Origin: Verrucomicrobiota bacterium
Lineage (GTDB): Bacteria; Verrucomicrobiota; Verrucomicrobiia; Chthoniobacterales; JAFAMB01
Assembly (NCBI GenBank): GCA_019243005.1
Contig: JAFAUY010000423.1
Span: 1 to 33,646 of the forward strand
Length of the DNA stretch: 33,646 nucleotides
Direction: 5' to 3'
Under the pieces are notes generated by a model that was not told the origin of the DNA, did not search any database, and saw only the letters and a list, made by a program, of their open reading frames with translations. This document shows positions 4,828 to 14,703 of this stretch, piece by piece (position 1 is the first letter of the stretch; every line of letters starts with the position of its first letter). The position numbers and the translations under genes are program-made.

Positions 4828-5769
4828 TCATACCGCTTGAAACGGGATCGAGTCATCCGGTTTGCGCCGGGGACGCGCGGCGATTGCCACCCCGAGATTT
4901 GCCACCAGCAGGATACACAGGAACGCACCCGCAAGCCACAGGGCGAGCCGCTGAAAGGTCGTCTGCGCCATTTGCAAGGGGATTGTCATCGGCACAGAAA
5001 CAATTTGCGCTCCGATGATTTCATTCATCTTCCAGCCGAAGCCATTATCCGGCCCGTAAAGCCGGAGCATGGCGGGAGGAGCCTTATCCGGGGTGCTATG
5101 GCACTCAAGGCAGCTTACGTTGGTAACCTTGATCGGCCGTGCCAGGAATAACGAGGTTCCGGTGGTGGAGGTGTCGCGCGTGTTGACGAATTCGTCGCGT
5201 GCCCGGCCGTTTCGAAAGAGGTTAACGACGTCCGCTTCCCAATCGGTCGCCCGATCGCGCGGGTTACTCGGGTTGAGCGTGGATTCTTTGTAAAAATAGT
5301 CGGGAAATTTCTCCCGAAGGTAGTTAAAACTCTCGGTCGCGGCAGAAGCAGTAACCGATTGCGGGTGAAAGTCGGTGTCGGCGAGTTCTTCCGGTTGCTC
5401 CTTCAACGACTGCAAGAAGGGTTGCTGTGCCTCCCATAGGCGCTGCTGACCGAGCATAAAATACTGCTTATCGCGGGCGCGGAGGTCTTTGGCAGCATTC
5501 GAATCGGGAGCGACGGACAGTAGTTCGATGGTTTTTCGAATCTGCGCGAGGGCCGCTTGCAACTTGAAACCTTGCTGCTGCAGGACCGGTGCGACCTGCT
5601 TGGTGGTGTACGTCCGGCTCGATAGCGACGCCTCCAGGATAAGCCGCGCGTTCTGGATGACTTCCTGGCGGGCATCATCTAACAACATTTTTCGCGTGAT
5701 GTAGGCGATGCACCCCAGACAAAGCGCCAGAACGGGAACGAAAATAAGGTTAAATTTGATGAGCTTCAT
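4828..5769 (-). CDS. Membrane-anchored DUF3365 (Tll0287-like) sensor protein with haem c motif
   Basis: A 313-residue protein with a helix near residues 5-25, a large exported region and a second helix at about 275-297, followed by a short basic cytoplasmic tail. The exported part ends in features of Tll0287-like/DUF3365 domains, usually found as haem-binding sensor modules: NLFRNGRARDEF, then CLECH at residues 220-224 (a CxxCH motif for covalent haem c), then the GFGWKMNEIIGAQIVSVP block. An extra helical segment (about 60-145) is inserted before the core. No output domain is present. Its ATG overlaps the stop codon of the upstream kinase gene by four bases (ATGA), so the two are translationally coupled. 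It probably senses a redox condition or small ligand outside the membrane and acts with the kinase; the partnership is inferred. Confidence 0.8.
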   Translation of the reverse strand: MKLIKFNLIFVPVLALCLGCIAYITRKMLLDDARQEVIQNARLILEASLSSRTYTTKQVAPVLQQQGFKLQAALAQIRKTIELLSVAPDSNAAKDLRARDKQYFMLGQQRLWEAQQPFLQSLKEQPEELADTDFHPQSVTASAATESFNYLREKFPDYFYKESTLNPSNPRDRATDWEADVVNLFRNGRARDEFVNTRDTSTTGTSLFLARPIKVTNVSCLECHSTPDKAPPAMLRLYGPDNGFGWKMNEIIGAQIVSVPMTIPLQMAQTTFQRLALWLAGAFLCILLVANLGVAIAARPRRKPDDSIPFQAV

Positions 5770-7763
5770 TCCGACTCTCCATTTGCAGCGATTACGCAGC
5801 GAAAACCGACGTCGTCGCTGCGGAGGTAAGGGTCGTAGCCCCGGCGCGCTGAAGAGAGCAGGTCATCAGCGCGCCACGTTGCCCAGGATCCTCCGCGGAG
5901 CGTGCGCCAAGTCAGCGTGCCGTTGAATTTGTCGAAGCACCATTCCCAGACGTTTCCACCCAGATTGTAAAGGCCGCGCTGGTCGGCTGCAAACGCCGAT
6001 ACGGGTCCCGTGCGCGGGAAAGGATCGTGAAATTCAGGGATGACGTTCCAATTCACCGGTGCACCCTCGCTCGATTCACTTCCGGCATAGTTTCTGGCGT
6101 CAACCGGAGGTGGAAACGTTCGTCCCCAGGGATAAACGCCTTTAACTTTCTCACTACGTTCCTCGGGCGTAGCCCCGCGCTCATTCGTGAGCCCGACGGC
6201 GATACTCCACTCGCGGTCGGTAGGCAACCGGTACCGGAAGGATGTGGCGAGCAGACCCGCACTCTGTTCAGTTTGGGTCAGCCAGGCGCAGAATTGGTTT
6301 GCATCTTCCCAACTCACACCCACCACCGGGTGCTCGGGTGTTTGTGCAAAACCGGGATTCTTCCAACTCATCTTATTCAGCTTGAAACCATCCCGGGAAA
6401 CGACGGAGGACATGCCCCCAACGGCGTCGTAGCCGGTTACTCTCACAAAAGCTTCAAAATCGTGCACTCGCGTCTGCCAAATCGCGATCTCGACCTTTCC
6501 AAGCGGCACGAAGCGCATACCCAAACTATTGACCCAAGGCCGACCGGCGGTGAACGCCGGTTGGCTGGTCGAGGTGGAAGAAGTTTTCGGTAAAGCGGAG
6601 GACATGGGTGTGCCGGCGCTGGTCTGAATCCTGGGTCGAGCGACAAAAAACCAGGCTGACAGGCCAGCCAGCAACAACCCACCGGCAACCACGCCGCTGA
6701 TGAGAAAGGAGCGGCGTTTTGACCGTGACCGGCGTGCCGACGGGGTTGCGGGCGAGGCGCCAGTCGATCCATCCCGAGGCGTACCAGTGGGGGGCGGTCC
6801 TCTGCGACCCTGGCTCGACGTACCGGGGGTCTGGGAGATCCCGAGCGGGCTCGTTTCGAGACGGCCACCGGCAGATCCTGACGGCAGGCTCGTCGTGTCC
6901 GCCGGGGTGTGGAGTTGCTCGAGGCATGACCTTAGCGCCGTGCGGAGTTGCGATGGCGTTTGGATTCGCTTGTCCCGGTCTTTCTCAAGCATTCCGCGCA
7001 GCAGGGAAACGACGCCCCCGGGCAGGATCGCCAAGCTGTCGAAGGGCGGCGATTTTTCGAGATGTTGCGCGATGACGCTCGCCGCCGATCCCACAAAGGG
7101 AGGCTCACCCGTAAGCATGTACCAGAGCGTGACCCCGAGGGAGTAAATGTCCGAACGAATGTCTTCCTGCTCATGCTCGAGTTGCTCGGGGCTGGCAAAA
7201 TGCGGTGTGCCGGCGAAGCCGTGGAGGGTGAGGGTCCCGCTGCCCGCTTCCCGAGCGGCGGATTTGGCCAGGCCAAAATCGATCACCTTCACGAGGATTT
7301 CGTCATCGCCTTCGCGCACCAGCATCAGGTTTGACGGCTTGATGTCTCGATGGACCAGGTGCTGCTTCTCCGCGGCAATCAGTGCACCTGCGACCTGCTG
7401 GGCAATCCCCAGAGCCAGCGGGCAATCGAGCGGTCCCGCACGTTTTACCAGCTCTTCGACCGTCTCACCTTCGATGAGCTCCATCGCATAGAAGTAGCTG
7501 CGGCCATGCCGGCCAAGATGAAAGACCGACGCCACGTTACGATGGCGCAGCCGGGCCGCCGCTCGGGCTTCCCTCAGAAACCTTTCGGCTGCAATCCTGT
7601 CCTCGAGAAGGCCGGTCGTGATCACCTTAAGCGCAACGTTGCACTGCAAATTTGTATCAAAAGCTTTGTAAGTGATCCCCATGCCACCGCGGCCCAATTC
7701 TGCGGGGGATCCATCCGGATTTCGCAGGATTTCGTAGTGCTCGAATTCTAAGGAGTCTGGCAT
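5766..7763 (-). CDS. Membrane Ser/Thr protein kinase with C-terminal FGE-sulfatase-like domain
   Basis: A 665-residue PknB/Hanks-type kinase. The glycine loop LGRGGMGITYKA is at residues 23-34, the ATP lysine in VALKVI is Lys46, HRDIKPSNLM starts at 138, DFG is 162-164, and GTPHFASPEQ is the activation-segment end. A proline/serine-rich linker leads to one membrane helix (about 352-374). The outer part, about 408-657, is a formylglycine-generating-enzyme/SUMF1-like domain with VGVSWEDANQFCAWL, YRLPTDREWS, GNVWEWC and LRGGSW. Such fusions usually use the domain for ligand binding rather than sulfatase activation. I chose ATG 7763, because GAGG precedes it by about ten bases and it begins the kinase domain; the frame opens further, to 7892, but that extension has no domain. 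It overlaps the downstream haem-sensor gene by four bases. Confidence 0.9.
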   Translation of the reverse strand: MPDSLEFEHYEILRNPDGSPAELGRGGMGITYKAFDTNLQCNVALKVITTGLLEDRIAAERFLREARAAARLRHRNVASVFHLGRHGRSYFYAMELIEGETVEELVKRAGPLDCPLALGIAQQVAGALIAAEKQHLVHRDIKPSNLMLVREGDDEILVKVIDFGLAKSAAREAGSGTLTLHGFAGTPHFASPEQLEHEQEDIRSDIYSLGVTLWYMLTGEPPFVGSAASVIAQHLEKSPPFDSLAILPGGVVSLLRGMLEKDRDKRIQTPSQLRTALRSCLEQLHTPADTTSLPSGSAGGRLETSPLGISQTPGTSSQGRRGPPPTGTPRDGSTGASPATPSARRSRSKRRSFLISGVVAGGLLLAGLSAWFFVARPRIQTSAGTPMSSALPKTSSTSTSQPAFTAGRPWVNSLGMRFVPLGKVEIAIWQTRVHDFEAFVRVTGYDAVGGMSSVVSRDGFKLNKMSWKNPGFAQTPEHPVVGVSWEDANQFCAWLTQTEQSAGLLATSFRYRLPTDREWSIAVGLTNERGATPEERSEKVKGVYPWGRTFPPPVDARNYAGSESSEGAPVNWNVIPEFHDPFPRTGPVSAFAADQRGLYNLGGNVWEWCFDKFNGTLTWRTLRGGSWATWRADDLLSSARRGYDPYLRSDDVGFRCVIAANGESE

Positions 7764-8662: not shown

Positions 8663-9427
8663 TCACCAGCAAACAAAGCCCCCGTCGACGATCAGGTCGA
8701 CCCCCGTGCAGAAGGACGCGGCCGGGCTCGACAGGAAAATGGCCGGCCCGACCAATTCGTCCACCGTCGCCATGCGGCCCAGCGGCGTATCGGCCTCAAA
8801 CCGCTTGACCTGCTCGGCCACCTCCGGCCGCACGTTCATCGGCGTGGCCGTGTAGCCGGGGCTGATGGAGTTGACCCGCACGCCCCGGTCGCTCCATTCC
8901 ATGGCCAAACTCTTGGACAGGTGGATGACCCCGGCTTTTGAAGTGTTGTAATGCGCTTGCAGCAGCCCCCGGTTGACGATGACGCCCGACATGGAGGCGA
9001 TGTTAACGATGGAGCCGGCTTTGCGCGGCAGCATGACCCGGGCTTCCGCCTGGCAGGACAGGAAGATGCCGGTTAAGTTAATGTCCAGCATCCGCTGCCA
9101 TTGCTCCAGCGGCATGGCTTCGGCCGGGGCGGCGTTGGCGATGCCCGCACAATTCACCGCGACCGACAAGGGCCCCAGCCCTCGTTCGACGCCGTCCACG
9201 GCCCGCTGCAGGTCGGCTGCTTGCGTGACGTCGCCGGTTAAGGCGATGGCTCCTCGGCCAAGCCCTTTGATCCGGTCGACCGTGCCCGCCAGCCCCTTGC
9301 TTGAGGGCAGGTCAAAGCACCCCACCGAAGCGCCCGCTTCGGCCAGTCCCAGGGCGATGCGTTGGCCGATGCCGCTGCCGGCGCCGGTCACAAAGGCCGT
9401 TTTACCTTCCAGGCTGAATAGGTTCAT
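8663..9427 (-). CDS. SDR-family oxidoreductase, probable polyol/sugar dehydrogenase
   Basis: A 254-residue classical short-chain dehydrogenase, NAD(P)-dependent and cytoplasmic. The cofactor motif TGAGSGIG is at residues 14-21, NCAG near 92-95, and the catalytic set is Ser147, Tyr160 and Lys164 (YxxxK). The end, DLIVDGGFVCW, is typical of SDRs encoded with sugar or polyol ABC transporters. It is the last enzyme of the minus-strand transporter cluster and lies 68 bases after the ATPase gene, so it most likely oxidises the imported polyol or its ketose. The exact substrate cannot be read from sequence. Confidence 0.88.
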   Translation of the reverse strand: MNLFSLEGKTAFVTGAGSGIGQRIALGLAEAGASVGCFDLPSSKGLAGTVDRIKGLGRGAIALTGDVTQAADLQRAVDGVERGLGPLSVAVNCAGIANAAPAEAMPLEQWQRMLDINLTGIFLSCQAEARVMLPRKAGSIVNIASMSGVIVNRGLLQAHYNTSKAGVIHLSKSLAMEWSDRGVRVNSISPGYTATPMNVRPEVAEQVKRFEADTPLGRMATVDELVGPAIFLSSPAASFCTGVDLIVDGGFVCW

Positions 9428-9495
9428 AAGTTCGAGAAAGACGATTGGGTGAGGAACGTTGCGTGATGGACAAGCGTTGAGGGGGGCTGGCGACT

Positions 9496-11052
9496 TCAGG
9501 CGGTGGCCCGTTCCATGATGGCGACGTTAGTGGCTTCGCCCCGGGGCAGAATTCCCTGCGAGCGGCCGCGGGCCAGCACCAGCACCCGGTGCGACAGCCC
9601 CAGCACTTCCTCCAGGTCCGAACTGACCACGATCACGGCCATACCCTCCCGAGCAAGGCCGGCAATCGTCTCATAGATCGCCGCTCGCGCGCCCACGTCG
9701 ATGCCCCGGGTCGGTTCGTCGAGTATAAAAACCTTGGGGGAGCGGGAGATCCACCGGGCGATGATGGATTTTTGCTGGTTTCCGCCCGAGAGAAAACGCA
9801 TTGCCTGATTAGGCCGCCCCTTCACGCCGAGCCGCTTGATGGCGTCGGTCGCAAAGGAGACGACCTTCGCCGGCATCAGCCAGCCGTGCGGGGCCAGCCG
9901 GTCGAAGTTGCCCAACGCCAGGTTGCTGGCCACCGTATGGTCCAGCACGACCCCTTGGCCTTTGCGGTCTTCCGGCACCAGCACGATGCCGGCTTGGATG
10001 GCGTCTTCGGGTACCCTGAAATGGATCGGTTTACCCTCTACGAAGATCGACCCTGCGGCCAGCGGGTCGGCGCCCGCGATGGCCCGGACCAGTTCCGTGC
10101 GGCCGGCGCCCACGATGCCCGCGATGCCAAAGATCTCGCCGGCCCGCACCGAAAAGCTGATGTCCCGAAAGGCGCCGTTGGCCCCCGTCAAGCCCTCCAC
10201 CCGCAAGACGTCCTGGCCGGCCGGCTCTTCGAGCTTGGGAAAGAGGCGGTCCACCTTCCGCCCGACCATGTTCTCGAGCAATACGGGGACAGGCACCTGG
10301 GCGGTCGGGTGCGTGGCCACCAAGCGGCCGTCGCGTAACACCACGATGCGGTCAGCAATGCGCGCGATCTCCTCCAGCCGGTGGCTGATGTAGATGAAAC
10401 TGACCCCCTGCTGGCGCAGCTGATCGATCTGCGCGAACAACCGGTCGGTTTCCTCCCCACCGAGTGCGGCGGTCGGTTCATCCAGGATCAGGAGCCGCGC
10501 CTTCAGCGTGAGGGCCTTGGCGATTTCGACCTGCTGTTGGGCGGCCACCCGCAACGTGCGAACCAAGGTGGTGGGCGGCACGTCCAGGCCGAGCCGGTGG
10601 AGCTGCTCCGCCGCGCGCCGGTTCATGGCCTCACGGTCGATCCGCCCCCCTTTCCTCAGCAGCCGGCCCACAAAGACGTTTTCGGCGATCGACAAGTCCG
10701 GCAGCAGCCGCATCTCTTGGTGGATGAGCCCCACGCCGGCCTCGATGGCCTCGCCCGGCCGGGCGGGCGCGTAGGGCAGGCCCTCCCACGCCATCGTGCC
10801 TTTGGAAGGCGGAAAGAGCCCCGCGATGATCGATGACAACGTGGACTTGCCGGCCCCGTTCTCGCCCAAGAGCGCGACCAGCTCGCCTTCATACACGTCC
10901 AGGTCGATGCCGGAGAGGACCACGTTGGCGTCAAAGCTTTTTTCGATCCCGCGGAGGGACAGCCTCGGTACGGCACGTCCTTCGGACGAGACAGAAGCGT
11001 CCGAGGGGGCAGGCGGGCTGTTCGGGACGGCGTTGGCGTGGGGTGAGTTCAT
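9496..11052 (-). CDS. Sugar ABC transporter ATP-binding protein, RbsA/XylG type
   Basis: A 518-residue tandem ABC ATPase that powers an RbsABC-type sugar importer. The first cassette has a normal Walker A, GENGAGKST at residues 63-71, and an intact ILDEPTAAL Walker B. The second has the degenerate Walker A of this family (GIVGAGRTEL) followed by SGGNQQKSIIARW and ILDEPTRGID. The first 25 or so residues are an unstructured Pro/Ser-rich lead-in, so a slightly later start is possible. It sits 27 bases downstream of the binding-protein gene on the same strand. The single permease gene of the cluster probably supplies a homodimeric channel. Confidence 0.95.
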   Translation of the reverse strand: MNSPHANAVPNSPPAPSDASVSSEGRAVPRLSLRGIEKSFDANVVLSGIDLDVYEGELVALLGENGAGKSTLSSIIAGLFPPSKGTMAWEGLPYAPARPGEAIEAGVGLIHQEMRLLPDLSIAENVFVGRLLRKGGRIDREAMNRRAAEQLHRLGLDVPPTTLVRTLRVAAQQQVEIAKALTLKARLLILDEPTAALGGEETDRLFAQIDQLRQQGVSFIYISHRLEEIARIADRIVVLRDGRLVATHPTAQVPVPVLLENMVGRKVDRLFPKLEEPAGQDVLRVEGLTGANGAFRDISFSVRAGEIFGIAGIVGAGRTELVRAIAGADPLAAGSIFVEGKPIHFRVPEDAIQAGIVLVPEDRKGQGVVLDHTVASNLALGNFDRLAPHGWLMPAKVVSFATDAIKRLGVKGRPNQAMRFLSGGNQQKSIIARWISRSPKVFILDEPTRGIDVGARAAIYETIAGLAREGMAVIVVSSDLEEVLGLSHRVLVLARGRSQGILPRGEATNVAIMERATA

Positions 11053-11079
11053 CCGGCCGGCGTCGACAAACGAGCGTAA

Positions 11080-12018
11080 TTACGGGTGCTGGTTAATAAA
11101 AGGCGCCACGTTTTCCTTCGTGGTCAGGACCGCCTCCTGCAACTGTTCTTTGGGCAATTGCTTGCCGTCGGCCAGTTCCAGCGCCGAATCCAGCGCCAGC
11201 TTACCCATGTACTGGGTCTTTTGGGTCATCGTCGCGTCAAGCGTGCCGTCCCGCACCGCCTTCAGCCCAGCCACGTCCCCATCAAAGCCGAAAATCCAGA
11301 CCTTGTGCCCCACGTTGGCCACCTTGACGGCGTGCGCGGCCCCGAGGGCCAGCGCGTCGGCGCGGCCGAAAAAGGCGTTGATGTCCGGGTAACGCTGCAG
11401 CATGTCCTGGGCGATGGCAAAGCCCTCGTCCTGCATCCACATTTTGGTGGGTTGCTTGGCCACCACCTTGATACCGGGGCAGTTGGCCATCGCCTCAGTA
11501 AAGCCCTTGTCGCGGTCCAGTTCGGGCGTGGTGCCCAGCTGGCCTTGAATGATGGCCAGGTTACCCTTGCCGCCCATGGCCTTGCAGGCGTATTCGCCCA
11601 GGGTGCGCGCCGCCGCCACGCTGTCGGTCGCGATAAAGGTGTCGCCGGGCGCGTCGGGGGCGTTTCGGTCGACGTTGACGACCGGGATGTTGGCCTTCTT
11701 GGCCGCCTTGACCGGCACGCCGGCGGCGGTAGCGCCCGCCGGGATGTAGATCAGCGCGTTGACCCCGCGGGTAATCAGGTCCTGGATCTGGTCGACCTGG
11801 GTGGCCGCGTCGCCTTTGGCGTCGACGACGATGAGCTTAACGCCCTTGGCTTTGGCTTCGGCGTCGACCGATTGCTTGATTTGGTTGAAAAAGTCGGCCT
11901 GCAGGTTAGCGACGGCCAAGCCGACGGTCTTGTTGCCTTGGGCGAACGCGGACCAGGGGCTTAGTGAGACGCAGAGGGCGGTCAGGGCAGCGGTCAGGTA
12001 ACGATTCTGGAGGGACAT
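11080..12018 (-). CDS. Sugar ABC transporter substrate-binding protein, RbsB type
   Basis: A periplasmic binding protein of the peripla_BP_4 fold, 312 residues. A Sec signal peptide ends at about SAFA-Q (residues 25-27). The mature start TVGLAVANLQADFFNQIKQ and VDAKGDAATQVDQIQDLI are family hallmarks; VNVDRNAP and FGFDGDVAGLKAV form parts of the sugar pocket and hinge. It differs from ribose-type proteins in the pocket strand, so I do not name the sugar. It has its own candidate promoter in the 115-base gap upstream, consistent with binding proteins being made in excess over the membrane subunits. Confidence 0.95.
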   Translation of the reverse strand: MSLQNRYLTAALTALCVSLSPWSAFAQGNKTVGLAVANLQADFFNQIKQSVDAEAKAKGVKLIVVDAKGDAATQVDQIQDLITRGVNALIYIPAGATAAGVPVKAAKKANIPVVNVDRNAPDAPGDTFIATDSVAAARTLGEYACKAMGGKGNLAIIQGQLGTTPELDRDKGFTEAMANCPGIKVVAKQPTKMWMQDEGFAIAQDMLQRYPDINAFFGRADALALGAAHAVKVANVGHKVWIFGFDGDVAGLKAVRDGTLDATMTQKTQYMGKLALDSALELADGKQLPKEQLQEAVLTTKENVAPFINQHP

Positions 12019-12060
12019 GTTGGTAGGATGGTTAGCTAGGGTTTGCGTTGTGGTTATTTA

Positions 12061-12089
12061 ATAATAAAAGGGGAATAAAAGTTTGTGAA
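12061..12089 (-). promoter_or_regulatory. Candidate sigma70-type promoter for the binding-protein gene
   Basis: Read on the minus strand, TTCACA (12089-12084) is followed after exactly 17 bases by TATTAT (12066-12061); each is one base from consensus. The spacer is AT-rich in a GC-rich genome. The expected start point is about 35 bases before the ATG at 12018. It lies between the permease stop and the binding-protein start, so it would be an internal operon promoter. Confidence 0.5.
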
Positions 12090-12133
12090 CTCGAGCCCGG
12101 CCCAAGACTCCCGGCCGTGCATTCGACCCGCGG

Positions 12134-13150
12134 TCAGCTTCCTCGACGGCGCAGGGTATCGGAGCTGACCGCCAGGGCGATCACCACGCCGATGACCACC
12201 TGTTGGATGAAGGGCGACACGCCCGTCAGGTTCAGCCCGTTGTGCAGCACGCCGATGATCAAGACGCCCACGACCGTGCCGCCGATGCCCCCGACGCCGC
12301 CGCTCAAGCTCGCCCCCCCGATCACCACCGCTGCAATCGCGTCCAGTTCGTACCCAAGCCCGGCGCTGGGCTGGCTGGAATCCAGGCGGCTGGCCAGCAC
12401 GATGCCCGCCAAGCCCGACAGCAGCCCGCTGGCCACGTAGACCCACGTCGTCACGTTGCGCACGCGGATGCCGGCCAGGCGCGCCACCTCGGCGCTGCCG
12501 CCGATGGCGTAAAGGGCGCGGCCGGCTGAGCGGTACCGCAGGAAAATCCAACTGACAATCACCAGCACGATGGCCAGCGCGACCGTCAGCGACAGAAACC
12601 CGAAATATCGGCGCGTGGCGAAGCTGTCGAACCAGTCAGGGTAGCCGACGATCTGGCGGCCGTCGGTAATGATGTTGGCCAGGCCGCGGGCGATGGTCAT
12701 CATGCTTAAGGTGGCGATGAAGGCCGGCAGCCTGGCCCGGGTGACGAGCAGGCCGTTGGCCCACCCGCACAGGGCGCCCGCCAAAAGGGCGATCACGATC
12801 GCAACAACCAGCGGCAGGTTCCAGTCGTGACTCAGCCAACCCAGGATCATCATGGAAAAGGCCAGCACCGAACCGACGGAGAGGTCGATGCCCGCGATGA
12901 TGATCACCAAGGTCATGCCGATCGACAGAATTCCTAACACCGTGACCTGGTCCAGGACGTTGAGCAGGTTGCGAAACGACAGAAAGGCGCCGGTGGTGAG
13001 GGAAAAAACGATGCAAAGCGCCACCAGGCCGATCAGCGGGCCCTGCACGCCGATGAGCTTACCGGCCCAGGAGGCCCCGCGCCGCACGGCTGGGGCCGGC
13101 GCCGCGGGCTGGGCCGCGGCGCCTTCTTTGGTGGTCTGGGGAGTGGCCAT
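12134..13150 (-). CDS. Sugar ABC transporter permease, RbsC type
   Basis: A 338-residue membrane protein forming the channel of the sugar importer. The N-terminal 35 residues are cytoplasmic and Ala/Pro-rich. They are followed by repeated hydrophobic helices, GIDLSVGSVLAFSMM (the conserved ribose-type loop), ANGLLVTRARLPAFIATLSMM, and the C-terminal signature GYELDAIAAVVIGGASLSGG. The order permease, binding protein, ATPase, SDR on one strand defines the operon. It lies directly downstream of a transketolase remnant with only 17 bases between. It is a paralogue of the truncated permease at the window start. Confidence 0.95.
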   Translation of the reverse strand: MATPQTTKEGAAAQPAAPAPAVRRGASWAGKLIGVQGPLIGLVALCIVFSLTTGAFLSFRNLLNVLDQVTVLGILSIGMTLVIIIAGIDLSVGSVLAFSMMILGWLSHDWNLPLVVAIVIALLAGALCGWANGLLVTRARLPAFIATLSMMTIARGLANIITDGRQIVGYPDWFDSFATRRYFGFLSLTVALAIVLVIVSWIFLRYRSAGRALYAIGGSAEVARLAGIRVRNVTTWVYVASGLLSGLAGIVLASRLDSSQPSAGLGYELDAIAAVVIGGASLSGGVGGIGGTVVGVLIIGVLHNGLNLTGVSPFIQQVVIGVVIALAVSSDTLRRRGS

Positions 13151-13167
13151 ATCGAAGTTTTTCTGCG

Positions 13168-13470
13168 TTAACGCTTCGCCAAAAGGTTACGCGCGGTGGC
13201 GGCCAGCCCCGCGGTCATCCCCACCAGGTTCTGCTCGGCGATGCCCACCTCCACGATCTGGCCCGGCACGGCTTTGGCAAAGGGGGCCAGCTTGGCCGAG
13301 CCCCGCGAATCGCTGAGGACCGCGCTCGGCTTGCCCGGCCGGAAGGGCACCGCTTCGAAGGTGCGCACCAACTCGCCGAGGTCGTGGCCGGCGTTGGCCG
13401 TCTTGATCAGCCGCAGCCGGGCTTGGCGGTGCTGCACCGATTTACGTTGGAGGTCGCGTTCAGTCAGCAT
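13168..13470 (-). pseudogene. Transketolase remnant (N- and C-terminal halves fused by deletion)
   Basis: The frame encodes about 100 residues from ATG 13470. The first 35 (LTERDLQRKSVQHRQARLRL and IKTANAGHDLGEL) look like the N-terminal helix region of a transketolase, degenerate where IYRAKSGHxGGSLS is expected. The rest is from the pyrimidine-binding half: AVLSDSRGSAKLAPFAKAVP, then VEVGIAEQNLVGMTAGLA, whose GIAEQN carries the catalytic glutamate of thiamin-diphosphate enzymes. Several hundred residues between them, including the diphosphate-binding domain, are missing, so no enzyme can be made. Many bacteria encode transketolase as two adjacent subunit genes. A deletion from inside the first to inside the second would leave exactly this product. 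Confidence 0.7.
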
Positions 13471-13533
13471 GAAGATGGTTTTGTGAGGGGTGCACTCGAC
13501 GCGCGCGGTCACTTGAATAAAAATTCATCCAAG

Positions 13534-13580
13534 GTTACGTAACGTACGGTAGGATTGGATTGGGGTTAGTTTGTTGTCAA
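13534..13580 (-). promoter_or_regulatory. Promoter with palindromic operator for the transporter operon
   Basis: On the minus strand a perfect TTGACA (13580-13575) is followed after 18 bases by AATCCT (13556-13551), a weak -10. The perfect palindrome GTTACGTAAC (13534-13543) covers the region just downstream, about where transcription would start. A good -35, poor -10 and overlapping dyad suggest a regulated promoter, plausibly under the SorC-type protein encoded just upstream. The assignment is inferred. Confidence 0.4.
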
Positions 13581-13698
13581 GGGCGGGTCCCCAAAAACTT
13601 AAAATTTTTTGCATCGACGCTCGGACCTGAGGTTTGGCCGGCAGCGGTTTGCCCAAGACCGCGTTCGCCGCAGGCTTACACGTTCCCCTCGATTTCTC

Positions 13699-14703
13699 TC
13701 ACGACGGGTTTAGCGCCGCCGATCCCGCGGCCACGGTCTTGGCAGGTTGCGCTTTGATCAACCGTTGCGCCGTGTATTGGTCCGTGATCAGGGTATTAAC
13801 CCACCGGCCGCGCAAGGCCCCCAGGATGGCCGCGAACTTCCTTTTACCGCCGCAGAGCGCCACCGACCGCGGCACGCGGCGCAACATTTCCAGCCCGATC
13901 CCGATAACGCGACCACTGAAAGCGCCTTTCACCTCACGGCCGTTGGCGTCATAGAAGCGGAAGCAAATGTCTCCGACGGCACCCTCCTTTTGCAAGGATT
14001 CCAGTTCCTCCCGCGAAAACGTATTTCCGCTGCTGGCCACCAGTGCCGAGGGTTCCAGAGCACCAACGCCGACCAGCGCCAAGGTGACCTTTTCAAAGAG
14101 CGCCACGGTTTCACTCACGTAAGGGTCCTGCAACAGGACCTTGGCTGCACCGGCCGAGCCTACCACCCCCGGGGCGGCTAGAAACCGGGCATCGCCGTGC
14201 ACCAACCGCGCCAAGCGAATGGCCAGCCGGCTAGCGTGTTGCTCAGCCGATGGGTTACCCACGCCCCCCAGTACCTGCACCACCGAGCAGTTTTCGGCTT
14301 TCCGCACGGGGCGCATGTGCTCGACCATCGCCAGAAGCGACGCGCTCCAGGACGAGATGCCGATCACGTCGCCGCCTTTGAGGGTGGATTCCAGGAAATG
14401 GGCCGCCGCGGAGCCGATCGCATTCAGAACCGATTCCTCCGCGTCGCGCGTGGCATCGCCTACGATCGCCTGATTCAAGCCAAACCGCTCTTCGAGCAAG
14501 CCTTCCAAGTCCGCAAAGGTGCCTGGAGGCGCGACCACCGTGGTTCGCACGATCCCGTGTTCCTCCGCTTTTTTTAACAGGCGCGAGACCGCCACCTGCG
14601 TGATCGCGAGCCGGCGCGCCACCTCGGTTTGGGTCAGCCCCTCTTCGTGGTAGAGCCGGGCGACCCGGGTCATGAGCCGCAGATCTGGAATGCTGTGCAC
14701 CAT
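13699..14703 (-). CDS. SorC/DeoR-type sugar-binding transcriptional regulator
   Basis: A 334-residue regulator. The N-terminal helix-turn-helix spans about residues 23-47 (LTQTEVARRLAITQVAVSRL), preceded by RVARLYHEEG as in SorC/CggR proteins. The rest is the sugar-phosphate-binding domain with DVIGISSWSASL, VVQVLGGVGNP and the C-terminal ALCGGKRKFAAILGALRG. These proteins respond to phosphorylated sugars. Since the adjacent FGGY kinase that would make such an effector is truncated, its normal inducer may no longer be produced from this locus. It lies immediately downstream of the kinase remnant and upstream of the transporter genes, all on the same strand. Confidence 0.92.
   Translation of the reverse strand: MVHSIPDLRLMTRVARLYHEEGLTQTEVARRLAITQVAVSRLLKKAEEHGIVRTTVVAPPGTFADLEGLLEERFGLNQAIVGDATRDAEESVLNAIGSAAAHFLESTLKGGDVIGISSWSASLLAMVEHMRPVRKAENCSVVQVLGGVGNPSAEQHASRLAIRLARLVHGDARFLAAPGVVGSAGAAKVLLQDPYVSETVALFEKVTLALVGVGALEPSALVASSGNTFSREELESLQKEGAVGDICFRFYDANGREVKGAFSGRVIGIGLEMLRRVPRSVALCGGKRKFAAILGALRGRWVNTLITDQYTAQRLIKAQPAKTVAAGSAALNPS

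Follow-up and report, generated by a model that had tools for sequence, protein, structure and literature searches.

A haem c DUF3365 membrane protein encoded in overlap with a transmembrane Ser/Thr kinase in Verrucomicrobiota: a candidate two-protein receptor

Introduction

Haem Cache proteins of the sCache_heme family, also known as DUF3365 or Tll0287 proteins (PF11845; PDB 5B82), have been defined as a family in PMC12889525, where about half of the members are described as stand-alone proteins without an output domain and where redox roles are assigned to such stand-alone members. Considering this, we were wondering what role a DUF3365 protein without an output domain has when its gene overlaps that of a Ser/Thr kinase, as is the case in the window analysed here, a stretch of 33,646 nucleotides from a bacterium of the order Chthoniobacterales (Verrucomicrobiota). 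The original prediction for this locus was a two-protein receptor in which the haem protein presents a signal to the kinase. The closest literature, PMC12889525, mentions neither Ser/Thr kinase partners nor serine, threonine or operon, and a full-text search that covered few subscription journals found just two further papers on DUF3365.

Results

A kinase gene overlaps the gene of a predicted haem c membrane protein

Both open reading frames were found exactly where they had been predicted, and they share the claimed ATGA, in which the stop codon of the kinase gene overlaps the start codon of the haem-protein gene (Table 1). The sequence GGAGA is located 7-11 bases 5' of the ATG of the haem-protein gene. 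The kinase frame begins with an ATG, and relatives beginning MPES/MAES-LEFEHY support this start.

Table 1. Features of the kinase-haem protein locus in the window
Feature	Position	Strand	Evidence
Gene of the 665-aa Ser/Thr protein kinase, with cytosolic kinase domain, single TM helix and FGE-like ectodomain	5766..7763	-	ORF, Pfam, hydropathy
Hanks-type kinase domain, residues 22-271, catalytic motifs complete	6951..7700	-	PF00069 8.6e-41
Kinase TM helix, residues 357-375	6639..6695	-	hydropathy 1.96
FGE-like ectodomain, kinase residues 429-657	5793..6479	-	PF03781 FGE-sulfatase 5.4e-33
ATGA overlap, kinase stop / haem-protein start	5766..5769	-	sequence reading
DUF3365/Tll0287 haem c protein gene, 313 aa, two TM helices, without HAMP	4828..5769	-	PF11845 5.6e-36
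Haem-protein TM1, residues 6-24	5698..5754	-	hydropathy 2.34
Haem-protein helical insertion, about residues 66-132	5374..5574	-	alignment, predicted model
Predicted haem c attachment motif CLECH, residues 220-224, between TM helices	5098..5112	-	sequence motif
Haem-protein TM2, residues 279-297	4879..4935	-	hydropathy 2.44

The haem protein scored 124.6 bits on the sCache_heme profile, for which the cut-off is 24.1, and when its predicted model was searched with Foldseek, Tll0287 (5b82) was the sole significant match in the PDB (E 1.3e-7, probability 1.00). The predicted CLECH motif is indeed present, and C220, C223 and H224 are invariant in an alignment of 29 homologues. The genome from which the window is derived encodes proteins for cytochrome c assembly, and the DUF3365 protein is predicted from its sequence to bind haem c covalently. 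Its chain stops about 16 residues past TM2 and it therefore lacks an output domain, in agreement with the original prediction. Cys residues are found only in TM1 (17 and 20), in the CXXCH motif (220 and 223) and in TM2 (285), so that nothing in the ectodomain corresponds to the Cys that serves as axial ligand in Tll0287. The insertion at about residues 66-132 is missing from HAMP-type homologues in the alignment and is helical in the predicted model, with low confidence at residues 126-132.

The PF00069 profile and the intact motifs GRGGMG, VALK, HRDIKPSN, DFG and SPEQ predict that the product of the upstream gene is a Hanks-type Ser/Thr kinase. The stretch RSRSKRR precedes the TM helix, and the kinase domain is therefore expected on the cytosolic side. 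A degenerate second kinase domain (hhalign 99.5%) occurs in several paired kinases of the order but is absent from the kinase of the window and from that of locus L047; in locus L030 (3899-4666, minus strand) and its equivalents, this domain sits between the kinase domain and the TM helix.

Within the FGE-like ectodomain, the segment GGSWATWRADD matches the site of the catalytic Cys pair of true formylglycine-generating enzymes, which we take to lie in this part of the domain, and it is free of Cys. In a PDB search, the top match of the domain was SUMF2 (1y4j), the inactive paralogue. Given that RGGSWATWRADD contains no Cys and hence no catalytic Cys pair, we ruled out that the domain is a catalytic FGE. 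The FGE part had been named as the only evident signal input of the kinase; the domain is present as claimed, but it has no catalytic Cys pair. Many unpaired ORFs of the order carry an FGE-like ectodomain too, and at least some of these are kinases, so that the domain was discarded as a pair-specific mark. Other unpaired kinases carry parts that by eye resemble PEGA, TPR or Sel1 sequences.

The gene pair is conserved within the order

Homologue searches, for which the haem protein alone served as the query, retrieved close homologues from the family of the window and from two further families of the order. Conservation of the adjacency in related genomes had been set as a test of the original prediction. 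Within the order, the kinase-then-haem arrangement was kept in 13 of 13 loci of this type: in each, the kinase, or its FGE part at contig ends, is encoded directly upstream on the same strand. These 13 loci were grouped by their similarity to the type found in the window. None of the seven other DUF3365 ORFs of the order, which are unpaired, TIR-fused or of the HAMP type, adjoins a kinase gene. Among 388 sampled genomes of the Verrucomicrobiota, the pair type was confined to the order of the window plus one weak match. Kinases are few, with seven detected in the genome of the window, which is 86% complete, 6-38 in eight others and 7-38 in the genomes with loci of this type, and chance adjacency is not credible; binomial tails for the adjacency overstate its significance, as the loci are interrelated and the per-locus rate was set by hand.

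Unpaired haem proteins, some of them TIR-fused, and unpaired FGE-kinases occur in the same order, which suggests that each can function alone and counts against a joint receptor. Fusions of DUF3365 with a kinase were absent from the loci examined. TIR domains fused to a membrane DUF3365 haem c domain are encoded in two Verrucomicrobiota loci, L037 (2333-3694, minus strand) and L038 (971-2608, plus strand), and L029 (6614-9125, plus strand) contains an ORF reading as TIR plus Ser/Thr kinase that is divergent from a kinase-haem pair. Upstream of the pair in the window and on the same strand (8663-14703, minus strand) lie genes for a sugar-type ABC transporter, an SDR protein and a SorC-like regulator. 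L026, L028 and L030 likewise have ABC genes close to the pair, and their orientation varies. We found no general conserved neighbourhood beyond the pair itself, sugar-type ABC genes being close by in a few loci only.

Ser/Thr kinases are frequent neighbours of DUF3365-HAMP proteins in other phyla

The pairing with a Hanks-type kinase had been regarded as unusual. This view did not hold, since the DUF3365-HAMP proteins that we examined have a Ser/Thr kinase as their most common neighbour. A scan of named genomes returned loci from Beta-, Gamma- and Alphaproteobacteria, Acidobacteria and cyanobacteria, and outside the Verrucomicrobiota a same-strand kinase gene adjoins 28 of 41 haem-protein ORFs. 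Among the remaining 13 are six cyanobacterial loci, two that lie at the end of a contig and one that is half of a split gene; another is L057, in which the gene directly downstream of the haem gene encodes a cyclase and a kinase gene lies some way upstream. In the class around a Zoogloeaceae genome, 369 genomes were sampled evenly; a kinase gene adjoined 23 of their 28 haem-protein ORFs, and two more adjoined the gene of a cyclase with the C-terminal repeats that are described below for the partner kinases. Plasmid records gave a kinase neighbour in four cases out of five, and on finished plasmids of Caballeronia, Paraburkholderia, Skermanella and Rhodovulum the neighbour is annotated as serine/threonine-protein kinase. 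On the plasmids of the first three (L096, L097 and L098, respectively), the genes for DUF3365-HAMP and kinase lie in or beside type VI secretion clusters (tssM, tagF, tssH, tssB, tssC). Some cyanobacterial DUF3365-HAMP genes are divergent from a gene for a PhnD-like substrate-binding protein, which is annotated as such in L100 (2419-3279, minus strand) and was recognised by sequence similarity in L090 (6725-7639, minus strand) and L092 (5866-6780, minus strand).

In Proteobacteria and Acidobacteria, where a kinase gene is adjacent at most loci, the gene order is usually reversed and the kinases belong to other subfamilies. The sensors of these distant loci consist of DUF3365 and HAMP (PF00672, 6.5e-12 for the one that was scanned; the alignment reveals the same C-terminal extension), and HAMP is their sole cytosolic part, which is not the case for the protein of the window. 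Their partner kinases have no FGE domain. Instead, most of these partners, be they kinases or cyclases, carry C-terminal repeats with an IGPLAKVLV-like motif; GPLAK-like repeats are shared by the kinases or cyclases encoded beside DUF3365-HAMP in L061 (8874-10346, plus strand), L057 (3893-5026, plus strand), L150 (4358-5260, plus strand) and similar loci. Pfam gave no consistent match for the repeats. The only match in a PDB sequence search was Af1502 (E 0.79), with a GPIAK motif in common, and a Foldseek search pointed to Af1502 as well (probability 0.92-0.95, E above 1). The best PDB match of the distant sensor profile was the HAMP domain of Af1503 (2.7e-9). Together, the Af1502-like repeats and the Af1503-HAMP match suggest that the Proteobacteria and Acidobacteria homologues are probably HAMP receptors coupled to STAC-like effectors. 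The STAC-type motif [LI]GP[LIMV] was absent from the kinase of the window in a motif search.

The pair of the window thus differs from the distant pairs in having neither HAMP nor STAC, in the extra helical insertion of its haem protein and in a kinase that spans the membrane and has a non-catalytic, FGE-like ectodomain, and coupling between its two proteins should occur within or outside the membrane.

The kinase-haem association has more than one origin or involved partner exchange

The kinase tree places the Verrucomicrobiota partners inside a clade (100/99) formed by kinases from their own order and away from the HAMP-linked kinases, which are themselves spread over separate deep groups; in this tree, the second, unpaired kinase of L029 is mislabelled as paired and the placement of some long branches is uncertain. 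In the haem-protein tree, the sequences from the order fall into a single clade (100/99), unpaired and TIR-fused copies included. With the partner kinases in separate clades and the haem proteins of the order in one, the sequence trees indicate that the association arose more than once or that partners were exchanged.

Discussion

The pairing of DUF3365 proteins with kinases recurs in distant bacteria, and for this reason we consider it fairly probable that the two genes encode two subunits of one transmembrane receptor, with the haem protein as the sensor and the kinase as the effector. The DUF3365 protein would expose covalent haem c on the external side of the inner membrane and, as it has no cytoplasmic output of its own, would pass its state through contacts with the co-translated kinase, the activity of which would then change inside the cell. 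These contacts could involve the two ectodomains, namely the helical insertion of the haem protein and the FGE-like domain, the TM helices, or both. We infer both the physical contact and the direction of signalling from the haem protein to the kinase. Nitric oxide or the redox state would be likely inputs by analogy, since the ectodomain, like that of the NO-binding HAMP-type member, offers no candidate for the Cys axial ligand of Tll0287; the case for NO draws on this missing ligand and on one characterised HAMP-type homologue.

Alternatively, the haem protein could be a redox carrier or an NO-handling, cytochrome-like protein, while the kinase regulates it or answers to the same condition. 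The redox-like properties of stand-alone Tll0287 and of a P. putida protein, together with the large stand-alone share of the family (PMC12889525), would fit such a role, as would the absence of HAMP from the haem protein of the window. However, having no Cys ligand in its ectodomain, this protein is nearer to the HAMP-type, kinase-linked homologues, and the partner that recurs is a kinase or a cyclase and not a redox enzyme, which leaves us with an unlikely explanation. Slightly less likely again is the idea that the kinase itself is the receptor, its FGE-like domain binding a ligand and the haem protein merely tuning or stabilising it. While the many FGE-like ORFs of the order that stand without a haem partner, in at least some of which a kinase domain is detectable, and the existence of FGE-like domains without the catalytic Cys, such as SUMF2, speak for this idea, a partner with an invariant haem motif has been kept in all 13 loci, and the distant partner kinases do without any FGE domain. 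That the genes are merely co-expressed and their products never touch is improbable, for although adjacency and overlap do not equal contact, the pairing recurs with kinases of separate clades and in reversed gene order.

If the two proteins do form one receptor, many 'stand-alone' DUF3365 proteins would be sensors with a neighbouring Ser/Thr kinase or cyclase as their output. Neighbour conservation suggests as much, the output of many of them being a Ser/Thr kinase or else a cyclase that carries the C-terminal repeats of the distant kinases. Hanks-type kinases would then join the outputs of extracytoplasmic haem sensing, possibly of nitric oxide, and two different architectures would couple one kind of sensor to a kinase. 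Whether the window encodes a haem c receptor kinase made of two membrane proteins, as a second solution beside the version in which HAMP is linked to a STAC-like kinase, is in our judgement evenly balanced.

Compared with known systems, the haem protein of the window shares with sCache_heme proteins the CXXCH motif, a Cache-like fold according to Foldseek and an extracytoplasmic domain between TM helices, but it lacks HAMP and a fused output, contains the extra helical insertion and is genetically coupled to a transmembrane Ser/Thr kinase. The HAMP-type protein of P. azotoformans binds NO and has no Cys axial ligand (PMC12889525), and the protein of the window likewise has no Cys ligand in its ectodomain. 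It resembles the NO-sensing subgroup of sCache_heme (PMC12889525) in having no ectodomain Cys outside CXXCH and differs from it in having neither HAMP nor a fused signalling module, the place of which may be taken by the partner kinase.

The closest parallel in gene arrangement comes from Archaeoglobus, in which the STAC protein Af1502 is translationally coupled to Af1503, a receptor with HAMP as its only cytosolic part (PMC4834066). The pair of the window is alike in that a receptor without its own effector is translationally coupled to a separate partner, and the HAMP-type homologues of other phyla match in HAMP and probably in the STAC-like repeats of their partners. In contrast, HAMP is missing from the sensor of the window and a STAC-like motif (LGPxxA) from the partner kinase, which itself crosses the membrane.

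With regard to the ectodomain of the kinase, SUMF1 and SUMF2 (FGE) belong to the same domain family by sequence (PF03781), but the domain of the window has no Cys in the catalytic segment and is fused to a kinase. Finally, like other transmembrane Hanks-type kinases with variable ectodomains, the kinase of the window combines a cytosolic kinase domain, one TM helix and a C-terminal ectodomain; unlike these, it is encoded together with a separate haem c membrane protein and belongs to a local Verrucomicrobiota clade.
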